From: Planococcus donghaensis
GTDB taxonomy: Bacteria > Bacillota > Bacilli > Bacillales_A > Planococcaceae
Reading direction: 5' to 3'
NCBI RefSeq assembly: GCF_001687665.2
Contig: NZ_CP016543.2
Coordinates: forward strand, 2,666,001-2,730,000
Length of the DNA: 64,000 nt
The position numbers were made by a program, and so were the translations under genes. This document shows, piece by piece, positions 1 through 58,073 of the stretch (position 1 is the first letter of the stretch; every line of letters begins with the position of its first letter). The notes under the pieces are model-generated. The model did no database searches, was not told where the DNA came from, and was given only the letters and a program-made list of their open reading frames with translations.

Positions 1-82
1 GCGTTTTTCTCTCGCACCGCGCGTATTTCCACTGCTCCGCGCGTATTTCCACTGCTCCGCGCGTATTTCCACTGCTCCGCGC
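1..82. repeat. Tandem 20-bp repeat, window-edge array
   Basis: Three identical 20-bp units beginning GCGTATTTCCACTG lie at 21-40, 41-60 and 61-80, preceded by a degenerate unit at 1-20; the array probably continues left of the window. It sits just past the terminator of icmF. The unit junction reads TCCGCGCGTATTTC, which resembles TCCGACAGTATTTC of the 21-bp arrays elsewhere in this window, so it may be a variant of that family; this link is tentative. Confidence 0.9.
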
Positions 83-33615: not shown

Positions 33616-33709
33616 TTGGATATACTGTCGAGATATGATGAAATACTGTCGGATTCCGCTTGAATACTGTCCAAATTAAGTGGAATACTGTCCAAATCTG
33701 AAAAATACT
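33616..33709 (-). repeat. 21-bp phased repeat cassette 2a (five units)
   Basis: ATACTGTC begins its CTGTC at 33625, 33646, 33667, 33688 and 33708, spacings 21, 21, 21 and 20. Read on the minus strand the units run GGACAGTAT, GATTTGGACAGTATT, AATTTGGACAGTATT, ATCCGACAGTATT and ATCTCGACAGTAT, the same order as in the cassettes at 46215 and 57924. Confidence 0.92.
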
Positions 33710-33765
33710 GTCCAATCCAGAAATAAGAGAATTTCCGCAGTCTCACAGCATGATTTTCCAGTTAT

Positions 33766-33890
33766 TTGGATATACTGTCCGATTGGAATAAAATACTGTC
33801 CGATTGGAATAAAATACTGTCCGATTTGCAACAAATACTGTCGGAATCCAATAAAATACTGTCCAAATCACACTATTTACTGTCCAAACG
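33766..33890 (-). repeat. 21-bp phased repeat cassette 2b (six units)
   Basis: CTGTC positions 33775, 33796, 33817, 33838, 33859 and 33880: five spacings of exactly 21 bp. It is separated from cassette 2a by 56 bp of unique sequence, and both are preceded by TTTGGATATACTGTC. With 2a it fills the gap between the converging genes hemQ and ywdK; no other content is seen there. Confidence 0.92.
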
Positions 33891-44951: not shown

Positions 44952-45048
44952 TTGAGTGCCTCCAATGGATTTATCTTATTGTATACTTATACTATAGTGA
45001 ATTTTTAGACAGATTGGTAACTTAATTTCATCCTAAGGAGTTTTGTAT

Positions 45049-46254
45049 ATGACCCGAACAAAGCAGCTTGATTTATTGTTTGAAGAGATGATTGAGATCA
45101 GAAGATATTTACATATGAATCCTGAACTATCACATCAAGAAATTGCGACTCCTGCTTTTATTGCAGACCGCTTGGAAGAAATGGGTGTGGAAGTTCGGCG
45201 CGATGTAGGTGGACGTGGTGTGGTAGGAACGATACGTGGCGGCAAACCCGGCAAAACGATTGCATTTCGCGCTGATTTTGATGCCTTGCCGATTGATGAC
45301 CAAAAAGAAGTTGTTTATAAATCGACTGTTCCAGGTGTTATGCATGCGTGTGGACATGACGGTCATACAGCAGCGTTGCTTGGCTTTGCGAAAGCGATGG
45401 TCGCTATGCAAGATGACTTGCCAGGAACGATTGTGCTGATTCACCAGTTTGGCGAGGAAGTATCGCCTGGTGGTGCACAGGCCATGATTGCCGATGGTTG
45501 TTTAAATGGTGTAGATGAAGTGTATGGCGCGCATTTGCAGAGCACGATGGACATAGGTAGCGTTTATTTACGCGACGGATTTTTACAAGCTTCTGAAGAT
45601 GTCGTTAAAATTGTTGTGCACGGTTCAGGAACCCATGGGGCCGAACCGCATCACGGCGTTGATCCGATTTTAGCAGCGAGCCACATTATGGTAGCTTTGC
45701 AATCGATCGTCAGCCGGAATGCAAATCCGTTAAAAGAACTTGTTGTAACGATCGGTAAGTTTCATGCAGGAGATGCGGATAACGTTATTTCGAGTAAAGC
45801 AGTGCTCGAAGGAACCATTCGTGTATTCGATCCTGAAATTCGAAAATTAGCGAGTCAGCGGCTGCGGACAATTGTGGAAAATGTGGCAATTGCCTTGGGA
45901 GCTACTGCAGAAGTTAGCATCGAAGCGGGATACGACTCGCTTTGGAATCACCCAGCCGAAACGAACATTGTTCGAGCAGCTGCAGCGAGCGTGTTAGGCG
46001 CAGATCATGTTGTGGAAATCGATCCGGTGATGCCAGTTGAAGATTTTACGTATTATACGCAAGCTAAGCCTGGTGCTTACTTTTTTGTAGGTGCGAAAAT
46101 GGAAAATGATTCATTAGTTTATCCACATCACCATGAAAACTTTGATTTTAATGAGCATGCCATGTTGATAACAGCAAAAGTGTTTGCGGAGATTTATTTT
46201 AAAGCGCAAGAATCTGCCGTGGACAGTATTTCTGGTGATTTGGACAGTATTTGA
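45049..46254 (+). CDS. M20 family amidohydrolase
   Basis: 401 aa. The ATG at 45049 has AAGGAG 8 bp upstream. M20D (IAA-amino-acid/N-acyl amino acid hydrolase-like) with metal ligands in HACGHDGHTAALL near 97-109 (Cys and His), GEEVSPGGAQ near 133, and a C-terminal HHHENFDFNE. It probably releases amino acids from N-acyl or peptide conjugates. The last ten residues, DSISGDLDSI, are encoded by the first one and a half units of the 21-bp repeat cassette at 46215, so the original C-terminus was replaced or extended by the repeat. It is divergent from the dipeptide epimerase. Confidence 0.88.
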   Translation: MTRTKQLDLLFEEMIEIRRYLHMNPELSHQEIATPAFIADRLEEMGVEVRRDVGGRGVVGTIRGGKPGKTIAFRADFDALPIDDQKEVVYKSTVPGVMHACGHDGHTAALLGFAKAMVAMQDDLPGTIVLIHQFGEEVSPGGAQAMIADGCLNGVDEVYGAHLQSTMDIGSVYLRDGFLQASEDVVKIVVHGSGTHGAEPHHGVDPILAASHIMVALQSIVSRNANPLKELVVTIGKFHAGDADNVISSKAVLEGTIRVFDPEIRKLASQRLRTIVENVAIALGATAEVSIEAGYDSLWNHPAETNIVRAAAASVLGADHVVEIDPVMPVEDFTYYTQAKPGAYFFVGAKMENDSLVYPHHHENFDFNEHAMLITAKVFAEIYFKAQESAVDSISGDLDSI

Positions 46255-46312
46255 GAAATTCGGACAGTATTCTACACAAATCGGACAGTATTTCGTCCAA
46301 TCTCGACAGTAT
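46215..46312 (+). repeat. 21-bp phased repeat cassette 3 (five units)
   Basis: GACAG positions 46222, 46243, 46263, 46284 and 46305 (spacings 21, 20, 21, 21). Units: GTGGACAGTATTT, GATTTGGACAGTATTTG, AATTCGGACAGTATTC, AATCGGACAGTATTT and ATCTCGACAGTAT. It overlaps the 3' end of the M20 coding region and lies in a convergent gap before kbl. Confidence 0.92.
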
Positions 46313-46332
46313 CGCCTTTATTTGGAAATAAA

Positions 46333-56792: not shown

Positions 56793-56893
56793 TGAGCGTT
56801 CCGACAGTATTTTGGTGATTTGGACAGTATTTGACGGAATTCGGACAGTATTCTAGCTAATTTGGACAGTATTTCACCCAATCCCGACAGTAC
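56793..56893 (+). repeat. 21-bp phased repeat cassette 4 (five units)
   Basis: Units in order: TTCCGACAGTATTTTGG, GATTTGGACAGTATTTG, AATTCGGACAGTATTC, AATTTGGACAGTATTTC and AATCCCGACAGTA. It lies in the divergent gap between topB and the NERD gene. Its first 60 bp differ by only a few bases from the start of cassette 5 on the other side of the NERD gene. Confidence 0.92.
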
Positions 56894-56975
56894 TTCCATT
56901 AACTTCAAATTCCTCTTGCACCTGACGCACATTCTAGCTATATTTAAAGTAATTTCACATAAAGGAGAGGATCGA

Positions 56976-57923
56976 TTGATCATTAAAACACGCAACAAGC
57001 CTCCGGAAATTTTCCAACTCGAAAGTTTGCTTCAACGAATGCCCACCGTCCATCCCCAATATCCCCACTGGACTGAAAAACTTCGTCGCATCACCGCCGG
57101 TTACCACGGCGAATTGCGCGTCGACTCTTTTTGGCACGAAATCGACCTCTCGTTACCGCATTATTTTATCCACGACTTGTTCATCCAAAAAGAGAAGTCT
57201 TCCCATCAAATCGATAGCGTCCTCGTTACCAGTCGTTTTGTATTGGCATTAGAAATCAAAAGCATTTCCGGCTTGCTCCATTTTGATCCTGCTTTAAGGC
57301 AATTTTCCCGAACCAACAAAGACGGCAGCATCGATGGCATGAACAATCCCGACGATCAATTGCGCCGCCATGAAAAGTGGTTGGAGCAGTTTTTATTCAA
57401 GCAATGCATCCAGCTGCCAGTACTCGGTGCCATCGTTTTCACGTACCCATCATCTGTGGTCCAATCTCGCGCAGGCAACCGCATCATAATTCAGTCATCC
57501 GGATTGCCGCATCTCATGGAGCAATTGTTGATTCGTCACCCACGCGATGTCTTATCTAAGAAAAAAACTGAAGCACTGGCGCAAAACCTACTTATACTTC
57601 ATTCAATAAAACCATTTACGTCACTTGGACTTACGGATTCACTTTCGTCTGGCGTGATATGTCCTAGCTGTCCGTACTGCTTGCTGCATTATCGCGGTGG
57701 AAAATGGCGTTGCACCGTTTGCCAGCACGTTGATCCTCTCGCGCATCTTGATGCGCTCAGGCAATACCGCAGTTTGGTCAAAACGACGATCAACAATCGA
57801 GAGTTCCGCGACTTTACAGGAATCTCTTCTCCGTCGATCGCTTCCAAGCTATTAGCGAGTACAAAAATGCCTTATCACGGCAGTTTTAAAGATCGACATT
57901 ATGTGATTCCAGAGACGTTTTAG
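56976..57923 (+). CDS. NERD-domain protein with zinc ribbon and helical C-terminus
   Basis: 315 aa from a TTG at 56976 with AAAGGAGAGG 5 bp before it; an upstream ATG (56862) lies inside the repeat cassette and is not used. The NERD (nuclease-related) domain spans about 40-150: RVDSFWHEIDLSLPHYFIHD, QIDSVLVTSRFVLALEIKS holds the D-x10-ExK nuclease-type residues. A zinc-ribbon-like CPSCPYCLLHYRGGKWRC..C lies near 228-246, followed by a helical region. NERD proteins are thought to act on DNA; the role here is unknown. The gene is flanked on both sides by 21-bp repeat cassettes. Confidence 0.85.
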   Translation: MIIKTRNKPPEIFQLESLLQRMPTVHPQYPHWTEKLRRITAGYHGELRVDSFWHEIDLSLPHYFIHDLFIQKEKSSHQIDSVLVTSRFVLALEIKSISGLLHFDPALRQFSRTNKDGSIDGMNNPDDQLRRHEKWLEQFLFKQCIQLPVLGAIVFTYPSSVVQSRAGNRIIIQSSGLPHLMEQLLIRHPRDVLSKKKTEALAQNLLILHSIKPFTSLGLTDSLSSGVICPSCPYCLLHYRGGKWRCTVCQHVDPLAHLDALRQYRSLVKTTINNREFRDFTGISSPSIASKLLASTKMPYHGSFKDRHYVIPETF

Positions 57924-58020
57924 CGCTCCGACAGTATTTTGGCGATTTGGACAGTATTTGCCGGAATTCGGACAGTATTTCACCCAATTCCGACAGTATT
58001 TCACCTCATCTCGACAGTAA
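57924..58020 (+). repeat. 21-bp phased repeat cassette 5 (five units)
   Basis: It begins at the base after the NERD stop codon. GACAG positions 57930, 57950, 57971, 57992 and 58013 (spacings 20, 21, 21, 21). Units: CTCCGACAGTATTTTGG, GATTTGGACAGTATTTG, AATTCGGACAGTATTTC, AATTCCGACAGTATTTC and ATCTCGACAGTA. Confidence 0.93.
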
Positions 58021-58073
58021 GTCCTATTTATGGAATAAAACCCACATCCATTTCAAATAAAAGCCAAAAAGAA

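Follow-up and report, generated by a model that had tools for sequence, protein, structure and literature searches.

Helically phased intergenic repeat arrays in Planococcus as possible landing pads for a DNA-binding protein

The genome of Planococcus donghaensis (G000, hereafter the own genome) was found to carry 23 arrays of 4–6 units each at 19 loci (regions around pair matches), in which a conserved word recurs every 20 or 21 bp. These arrays are probably read as DNA by a trans-acting protein, because the units keep helical phase, the core is conserved, the core type is nearly global within a genome, and RNA explanations fit poorly. Insulation or a transcriptional roadblock is the leading candidate for their role because of a bias toward gaps between converging genes; this assignment is tentative and stands somewhat below an even chance.

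Results

The window is the whole 64,000-nucleotide stretch that was analysed (contig NZ_CP016543.2, positions 2,666,001 to 2,730,000). A sequence-only reading of it had described a motif recurring at 20–21 bp in cassettes at five sites, and all five were recovered as arrays by script. GGACAGTATT with at most 1 mismatch gave 23 matches against 2.6 expected, a number reached in 0/100 shuffles. On the minus strand, the array at 33621..33713 has 5 units with core GACAGTATT (spacings 20, 21, 21, 21), and that at 33771..33885 has 6 units, a first unit GGACAGTAAAT, the end TATATCCAAATAACTGGAAAA and the five successive spacings of exactly 21 bp that had been reported. On the plus strand, 5 units each were found at 46221..46313 (spacings 21, 20, 21, 21), at 56802..56894 (20, 21, 21, 21), in the divergent gap between genes for topoisomerase III and a NERD-domain protein, and at 57929..58021 (20, 21, 21, 21), which begins 5 bp past the NERD ORF and is a near copy of the 56802 array. 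The repeat-word scan added a phased array of another word, CGCGCGTATTTCCACTGCTC, in perfect 20-bp tandem copies at 18..82 (plus strand), possibly a young (newborn) member of the same class as the GACAGTATT arrays; a hairpin with a T run adjoins it. An M20 peptidase ORF (45043–46254) crosses unit 1 and stops in unit 2 of the 46221 array, which encodes the last residues of the protein.

Counted across the own genome at phased spacing, as had been proposed, the motif gave 69 core pairs and the backward-read pattern 0. Unit-to-unit spacing was 21 bp in 72/89 steps and 20 bp in 17/89 (mean 20.8), with a final step of 21 bp in 22 of the 23 arrays. Alignment of 112 units gave a conserved 15-bp block, A-W-T-Y-S-GACAGTATTT, plus about 6 free bases (unit logo AWTYSGACAGTATTT). 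Arrays close at their 3′ end with a distinctive sequence, T-C-C at +9 to +11 followed by a run of A/T and then TGG, and the CC said to lie at a fixed distance past the last unit is there (91% of 23 ends have C at +10, 95% at +11). The first unit is of the GGACAGTAAAT/CGACAGTAAAT type in 4/23 arrays. Unit order is conserved between distinct loci: spacers of the same index were 0.517 alike versus 0.454 for different indices, and 0/500 within-array permutations reached 0.517. The stronger claim of fixed unit identities stood for position 2, preceded by ATTTG in 12/18 five-unit arrays, but not for the last unit, preceded by ATCTC in only 5/18. No array or phased repeat was found on the 14-kb second contig.

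Folding of the 23 arrays as RNA gave mean z values of −0.5 and −0.7, with a single array below −4 (L119 16588; −4.1 and −4.6). The only match in an Rfam search of the window was a cobalamin riboswitch (RF00174; 22016–22202, minus strand), and no Rfam match to the window arrays was obtained. An RNA element was disfavoured on these fold values and on the lack of strand bias. About 6 of the 23 arrays, as judged by eye, directly follow an intact terminator and therefore do not replace one.

Between similar flanks, 18 ortholog array pairs were identified with G007, of which 8 differ by whole units, and 14 with G008, of which 2 do. In pairs of equal unit number, core differences between the own genome and G007 amounted to 16/441 (3.6%) and spacer differences to 118/495 (23.8%; 49 units, 10 arrays); for G008 the values were 14/531 (2.6%) and 116/561 (20.7%; 59 units, 12 arrays), the core rates being slightly low because no more than 2 core mismatches were accepted when arrays were called. 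Since the core is kept while the surrounding letters change, a protein probably reads the word.

The suggestion that the block of about 100 bp is the copied unit proved partly right, since in tandem copies (L117) and in one ectopic copy the duplicated sequence extends beyond the array. The ectopic copy, the L113 array, is present in G000, G007 and G008, and the same gap is arrayless in G027, G045, G010, G044 and G018. Its spacers are 0.82 alike to those of the L111 array, and in G007 the insert includes sequence matching the region beyond the L111 array (the end of an alcohol-dehydrogenase-like gene). Comparison of the target site, made for one empty site, showed a larger segment with a like terminator on each side; because the insert is wider than the array and so bounded, it was probably copied by segmental duplication rather than as a discrete element. 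Gene cassette exchange was rejected for the 3.13–3.15 Mb cluster, where gene content varies between species and the own genome keeps a weak TctB match; decay there is our guess. A phage origin was also set aside: the array pattern matches 1 viral contig, in a near-perfect repeat that may be coding; five further patterns match 4 viral contigs, in near-perfect tandems or GC-rich repeats; and phage records give only short, chance-like matches (E 0.1).

Cores fall into C, A and T types. The base at +2 is C in 97/100 own, 80/85 G007 and 71/76 G008 units, and A in 45/49 G002 and 51/52 G016 units, 3 of the 4 non-A units in G002 forming one separate C array; this near-uniformity indicates that core type is set nearly genome-wide. 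The G002 and G016 arrays carry GAAAGTATT in nearly every unit at loci shared with the own genome, and blastn aligned 16/18 regions around their A-type arrays or the HemQ gap to own array loci, leaving L226 and L231 with no match listed among the targets (own array loci and the window). Neighbouring arrays sharing one gap, each of a single type, were seen as A+C (L035, L083, L085, L102), T+C (L036) and A+C+T (L048), with one odd unit each in L085 and L048. Purity is not universal: L068 and L103 contain TCTT arrays, and several C arrays have a single deviant unit, often the first. Spacers of orthologous A and C arrays (15 pairs with the own genome, paired by a loose flank test, so that some pairs may be wrong) were 0.387 alike versus 0.377 for non-orthologous arrays (p 0.38), and the same comparison for G007 and G008 also gave background identity (p 0.18 and 0.16), so that a core switch in place is indistinguishable from replacement. 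The stretch past the last core was somewhat more alike in A/C ortholog pairs (0.58 vs 0.49). Judged by its flanks, the pair of near-identical arrays bracketing the NERD gene (window 56802–58021) also exists in G007, and G002 and G016 have it with the A core; G008, G010 and G027 show a similar pair separated by about 1.1 kb (flanks compared for G008).

C pairs were found in 29/46 genus genomes, A pairs in 19/46 and either type in 30/46; in 215 family members outside the genus, no C pairs were found. Where a match was obtained, HemQ from the other genomes of the genus is 89–99% identical to own HemQ. With this identity as a proxy, not a tree, either pair type was present in 0/13 genomes at 91% or less and in 29/31 at 93% or more; of two genomes without a HemQ match, one has arrays. 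When 84,980 species genomes were scanned for core triples, 77 stretches came back, all from Planococcus or Planomicrobium apart from one member each of Bacillus (Bacillus sp. HF117), Oceanobacillus and Sutcliffiella and a Bacteroidales tandem (L057), which is unrelated and was set aside as a different, near-perfect repeat. The HF117 arrays (L038, L071) are long, with up to about 20 units at 20–21 bp and GGACAGTAT and GGATAGTAT alternating or mixed, and thus combine C and T, unlike the nearly pure Planococcus arrays.

Most cassettes had been placed between converging genes. In the window this is so for 4/5 arrays, the array at 56802–56894 lying in a divergent gap. Over the own genome, the window, G017 and G024 (27/29 listed arrays classed), 9/22 gaps with arrays converge versus 28/351 without (p 6.9e-5), which supports the enrichment; divergent gaps make up 2/22 and 82/351, respectively (p 0.19). 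The 68 named loci yielded 85 arrays, of which 3 lay within called genes and 9 resisted classification; 32/73 classified arrays lie between converging genes versus 16/200 other gaps of at least 100 bp. Genes were called with a simple codon-usage script that misses some, such as the NERD gene. Array orientation relative to co-directional genes showed no significant bias (19 vs 11 and 7 vs 14). The record of the own genome opens with DnaA- and DnaN-like ORFs, recognised by eye, and the proposed bias relative to the origin was not robust (KS p 0.03 with all 19 loci and 0.24 with neighbours merged into 14). The convergent bias could instead reflect promoter avoidance or tolerance of a neutral site. 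A regulon was rejected, as most of the flanking genes scanned serve metabolism or housekeeping and have no relation to one another; isolated regulators (GntR, Rrf2, GlpP-like) adjoin own arrays.

The sequence-only reading had claimed one motif family; the GACAGTATT family is present, but many word families were found. Stretches of 20 kb (own genome 400 kb; G017, G024 and G018 200 kb each; four other-genus genomes 160 kb) and the window were scanned for any 7-base word chained at least 3 times, with every period from 11 to 60 bp allowed. Periods of 20, 21 or 42 bp were found for 31/33 intergenic chained repeats (own 6/7, window 5/5, G017 14/14, G024 4/4, G018 0/1, other genera 2/2), in stretches set at round coordinates yet not blind: the finding itself had prompted the choice of the window, L206 of G024 contains the HemQ locus, L249 of the own genome is a known array region, and G017, G024, G250 and G260 were chosen as genomes with earlier matches. 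The 11 genic clusters had periods from 11 to 48, with one at 21 and one at 42. The words were GACAGTA, CGCACCT, TACATGA, CGCGCGT, TATGATC (reverse TGATCAT), TACGCAC, GCAAACA, CCGCACA, TATACGA, AGTTGGG, ACCAAAG and TAGAGCG, about a dozen different words of which some may be related to each other. A similar scan of loci mostly fetched for the motif gave almost only periods of 19–22, and none in shuffled loci. Triples of GKTGCGG at 20–22 bp were present in 28/261 family genomes (21 belonging to the genus), some as perfect tandems. At L199 17960–18090 (G024), TATGAGCGC and TATGATCAC alternate, giving a 42-bp period.

Discussion

The arrays are phased, keep their core and their loci, have a core type that is set nearly genome-wide, and are biased toward convergent gaps. 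The earlier proposal that a protein sits on one helix face at each two-turn site is, as a reading of sequence, well supported by the phasing, the kept core, the near-global core type and the little RNA structure. From these observations we infer that the array would be a cis-acting landing pad and its reader a sequence-specific DNA-binding protein made by the cell. One protomer or dimer would read the asymmetric 15-bp site in each 21 bp, about five would bind cooperatively side by side on one face, and TNTCCAWWWAWNTGG would form the special array end. The sister cores GGAAAGTATT and GGATAGTATT may be read by homologous proteins of altered specificity, and other words in the same 20–21 bp frame by further proteins. 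A bound array might then separate transcription units by serving as an insulator or a roadblock. Taken as a whole, with a cooperative protein, changeable specificity and roadblock or insulator function, this statement comes close to an even chance and falls just short of it.

Should a protein indeed recognise the arrays, bacteria would possess a system of dispersed sites in helical phase whose address words can change, something between iterons, centromeres and insulators. In that case, genomes of the C type, the A type or both should encode the matching version, or both versions, of the reader, and because core type is nearly all-or-none, comparison and pull-down offer ways to look for it. 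The family seen most often among 86 flanking proteins occurred in 5, and no DNA-binding regulator was among the 25 of 153 families listed. The NERD gene was considered as the binder and set aside, the domain search having given a NERD domain only. More speculative, and rather doubtful, is a multi-channel chromosome code in Planococcaceae, in which a family of paralogous DNA-binding proteins would share one fixed two-turn docking frame while their core specificity changes quickly. Every paralogue would have its own set of intergenic arrays, and these would arise, switch core and disappear across the whole genome, serving as insulators or as points of contact between transcription units.

The bound arrays might instead be centromere-like or chromosome-organising sites that tether, condense or segregate the chromosome without acting on transcription. 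Phased head-to-tail sites suit a protein filament, as in ParR- and Rep-type complexes, and the arrays are dispersed, strand-indifferent and at shared loci, and in the own genome chromosomal, with none found on the 14-kb contig; a robust origin or terminus bias is absent, several word families per genome fit one organiser poorly, and we consider this reading unlikely. Equally unlikely are degenerate selfish repeats that spread by transposition or amplification and are merely tolerated in promoter-free gaps. Such repeats would account for the unit order common to different loci, for the perfect or near-perfect tandem arrays, and for the ectopic copy at L113 and the tandem copies in L117; they are at odds with a core kept across species while spacers are free and with a near genome-wide core type, and the ectopic copy probably arrived within a larger segment, not as a discrete element.

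Two readings in terms of mobile elements are highly improbable. Ends of TnsB/Tn552-type transposons hold several phased transposase sites within about 100–120 bp, in inverted pairs around the transposase, and the arrays likewise place several phased sites in a short span, so that they might be transposase-bound ends of a Tn7/Tn552/Mu-like element or miniature derivatives. The transposase search covered Mu-transpos_C (PF09299), which is present in three array-bearing genomes (G026, G031, G037); it is absent from 39/46 genus genomes, including the array-rich G000, G007, G008, G010, G027 and G045, and present in the array-free G028, G035, G036 and G042. Moreover, no inverted array pairs around a transposase were seen, the loci are old and shared, and no discrete insertion was apparent at the one empty site compared. 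Plasmid iterons of the RepA/RepE/pi type are asymmetric direct sites about 21–22 bp (two helical turns) apart, several per array and cooperatively bound, and the arrays resemble them as direct repeats about two turns apart; they could thus be decoys or replication sites for plasmid Rep proteins. Iterons usually adjoin the rep gene on their replicon, whereas the arrays occupy 19 chromosomal loci, and the own 14-kb contig is without a phased repeat. Rep3_N (PF01051), the initiator domain searched for, is present in array-bearing G002, G003, G008, G010, G016, G017, G020, G027, G034, G039 and G045, but absent from array-rich G000, G007, G009, G012, G021, G029 and G044 and present in array-free G001, G042 and G043; blastn, which is insensitive to changed spacers, gave no plasmid match to one array.

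No description of such phased arrays was found in titles and abstracts of open-licence literature. CRISPR arrays have repeats of about 23–47 bp, unique spacers and cas genes; here a 15-bp block is followed by about 6 free bases, and no cas domain was among the 25 of 153 families listed for the 86 flanking proteins. BOX elements of Streptococcus pneumoniae are likewise modular, dispersed and intergenic, with a start, variable middle units and an end, but they consist of longer units believed to form RNA structures, whereas the Planococcus arrays fold little. STAR elements of Staphylococcus have a 14-bp T(G/A/T)TGTTG(G/T)GGCCC(C/A) motif with at least 40 bp between copies, in tandems of about 50 nt, at loci stable within S. 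aureus and not shared between species (PMC3532100). They share with the arrays dispersed intergenic direct repeats in Bacillales, a short conserved motif, variable spacers, a copy number that grows and shrinks, a distinct last spacer and a function unknown in STAR too (PMC3532100). The arrays differ from STAR in their logo, their fixed phase of 20 or 21 bp unit-to-unit, loci common to several species and many words. The TAACTGA direct repeats resemble the arrays in forming many short intergenic sets whose binder is not known in either case (PMC4679880). They are heptamers that in one genome lie mostly just upstream of start codons (PMC4679880), whereas the Planococcus arrays are 21-bp phased and lie rather between converging genes.
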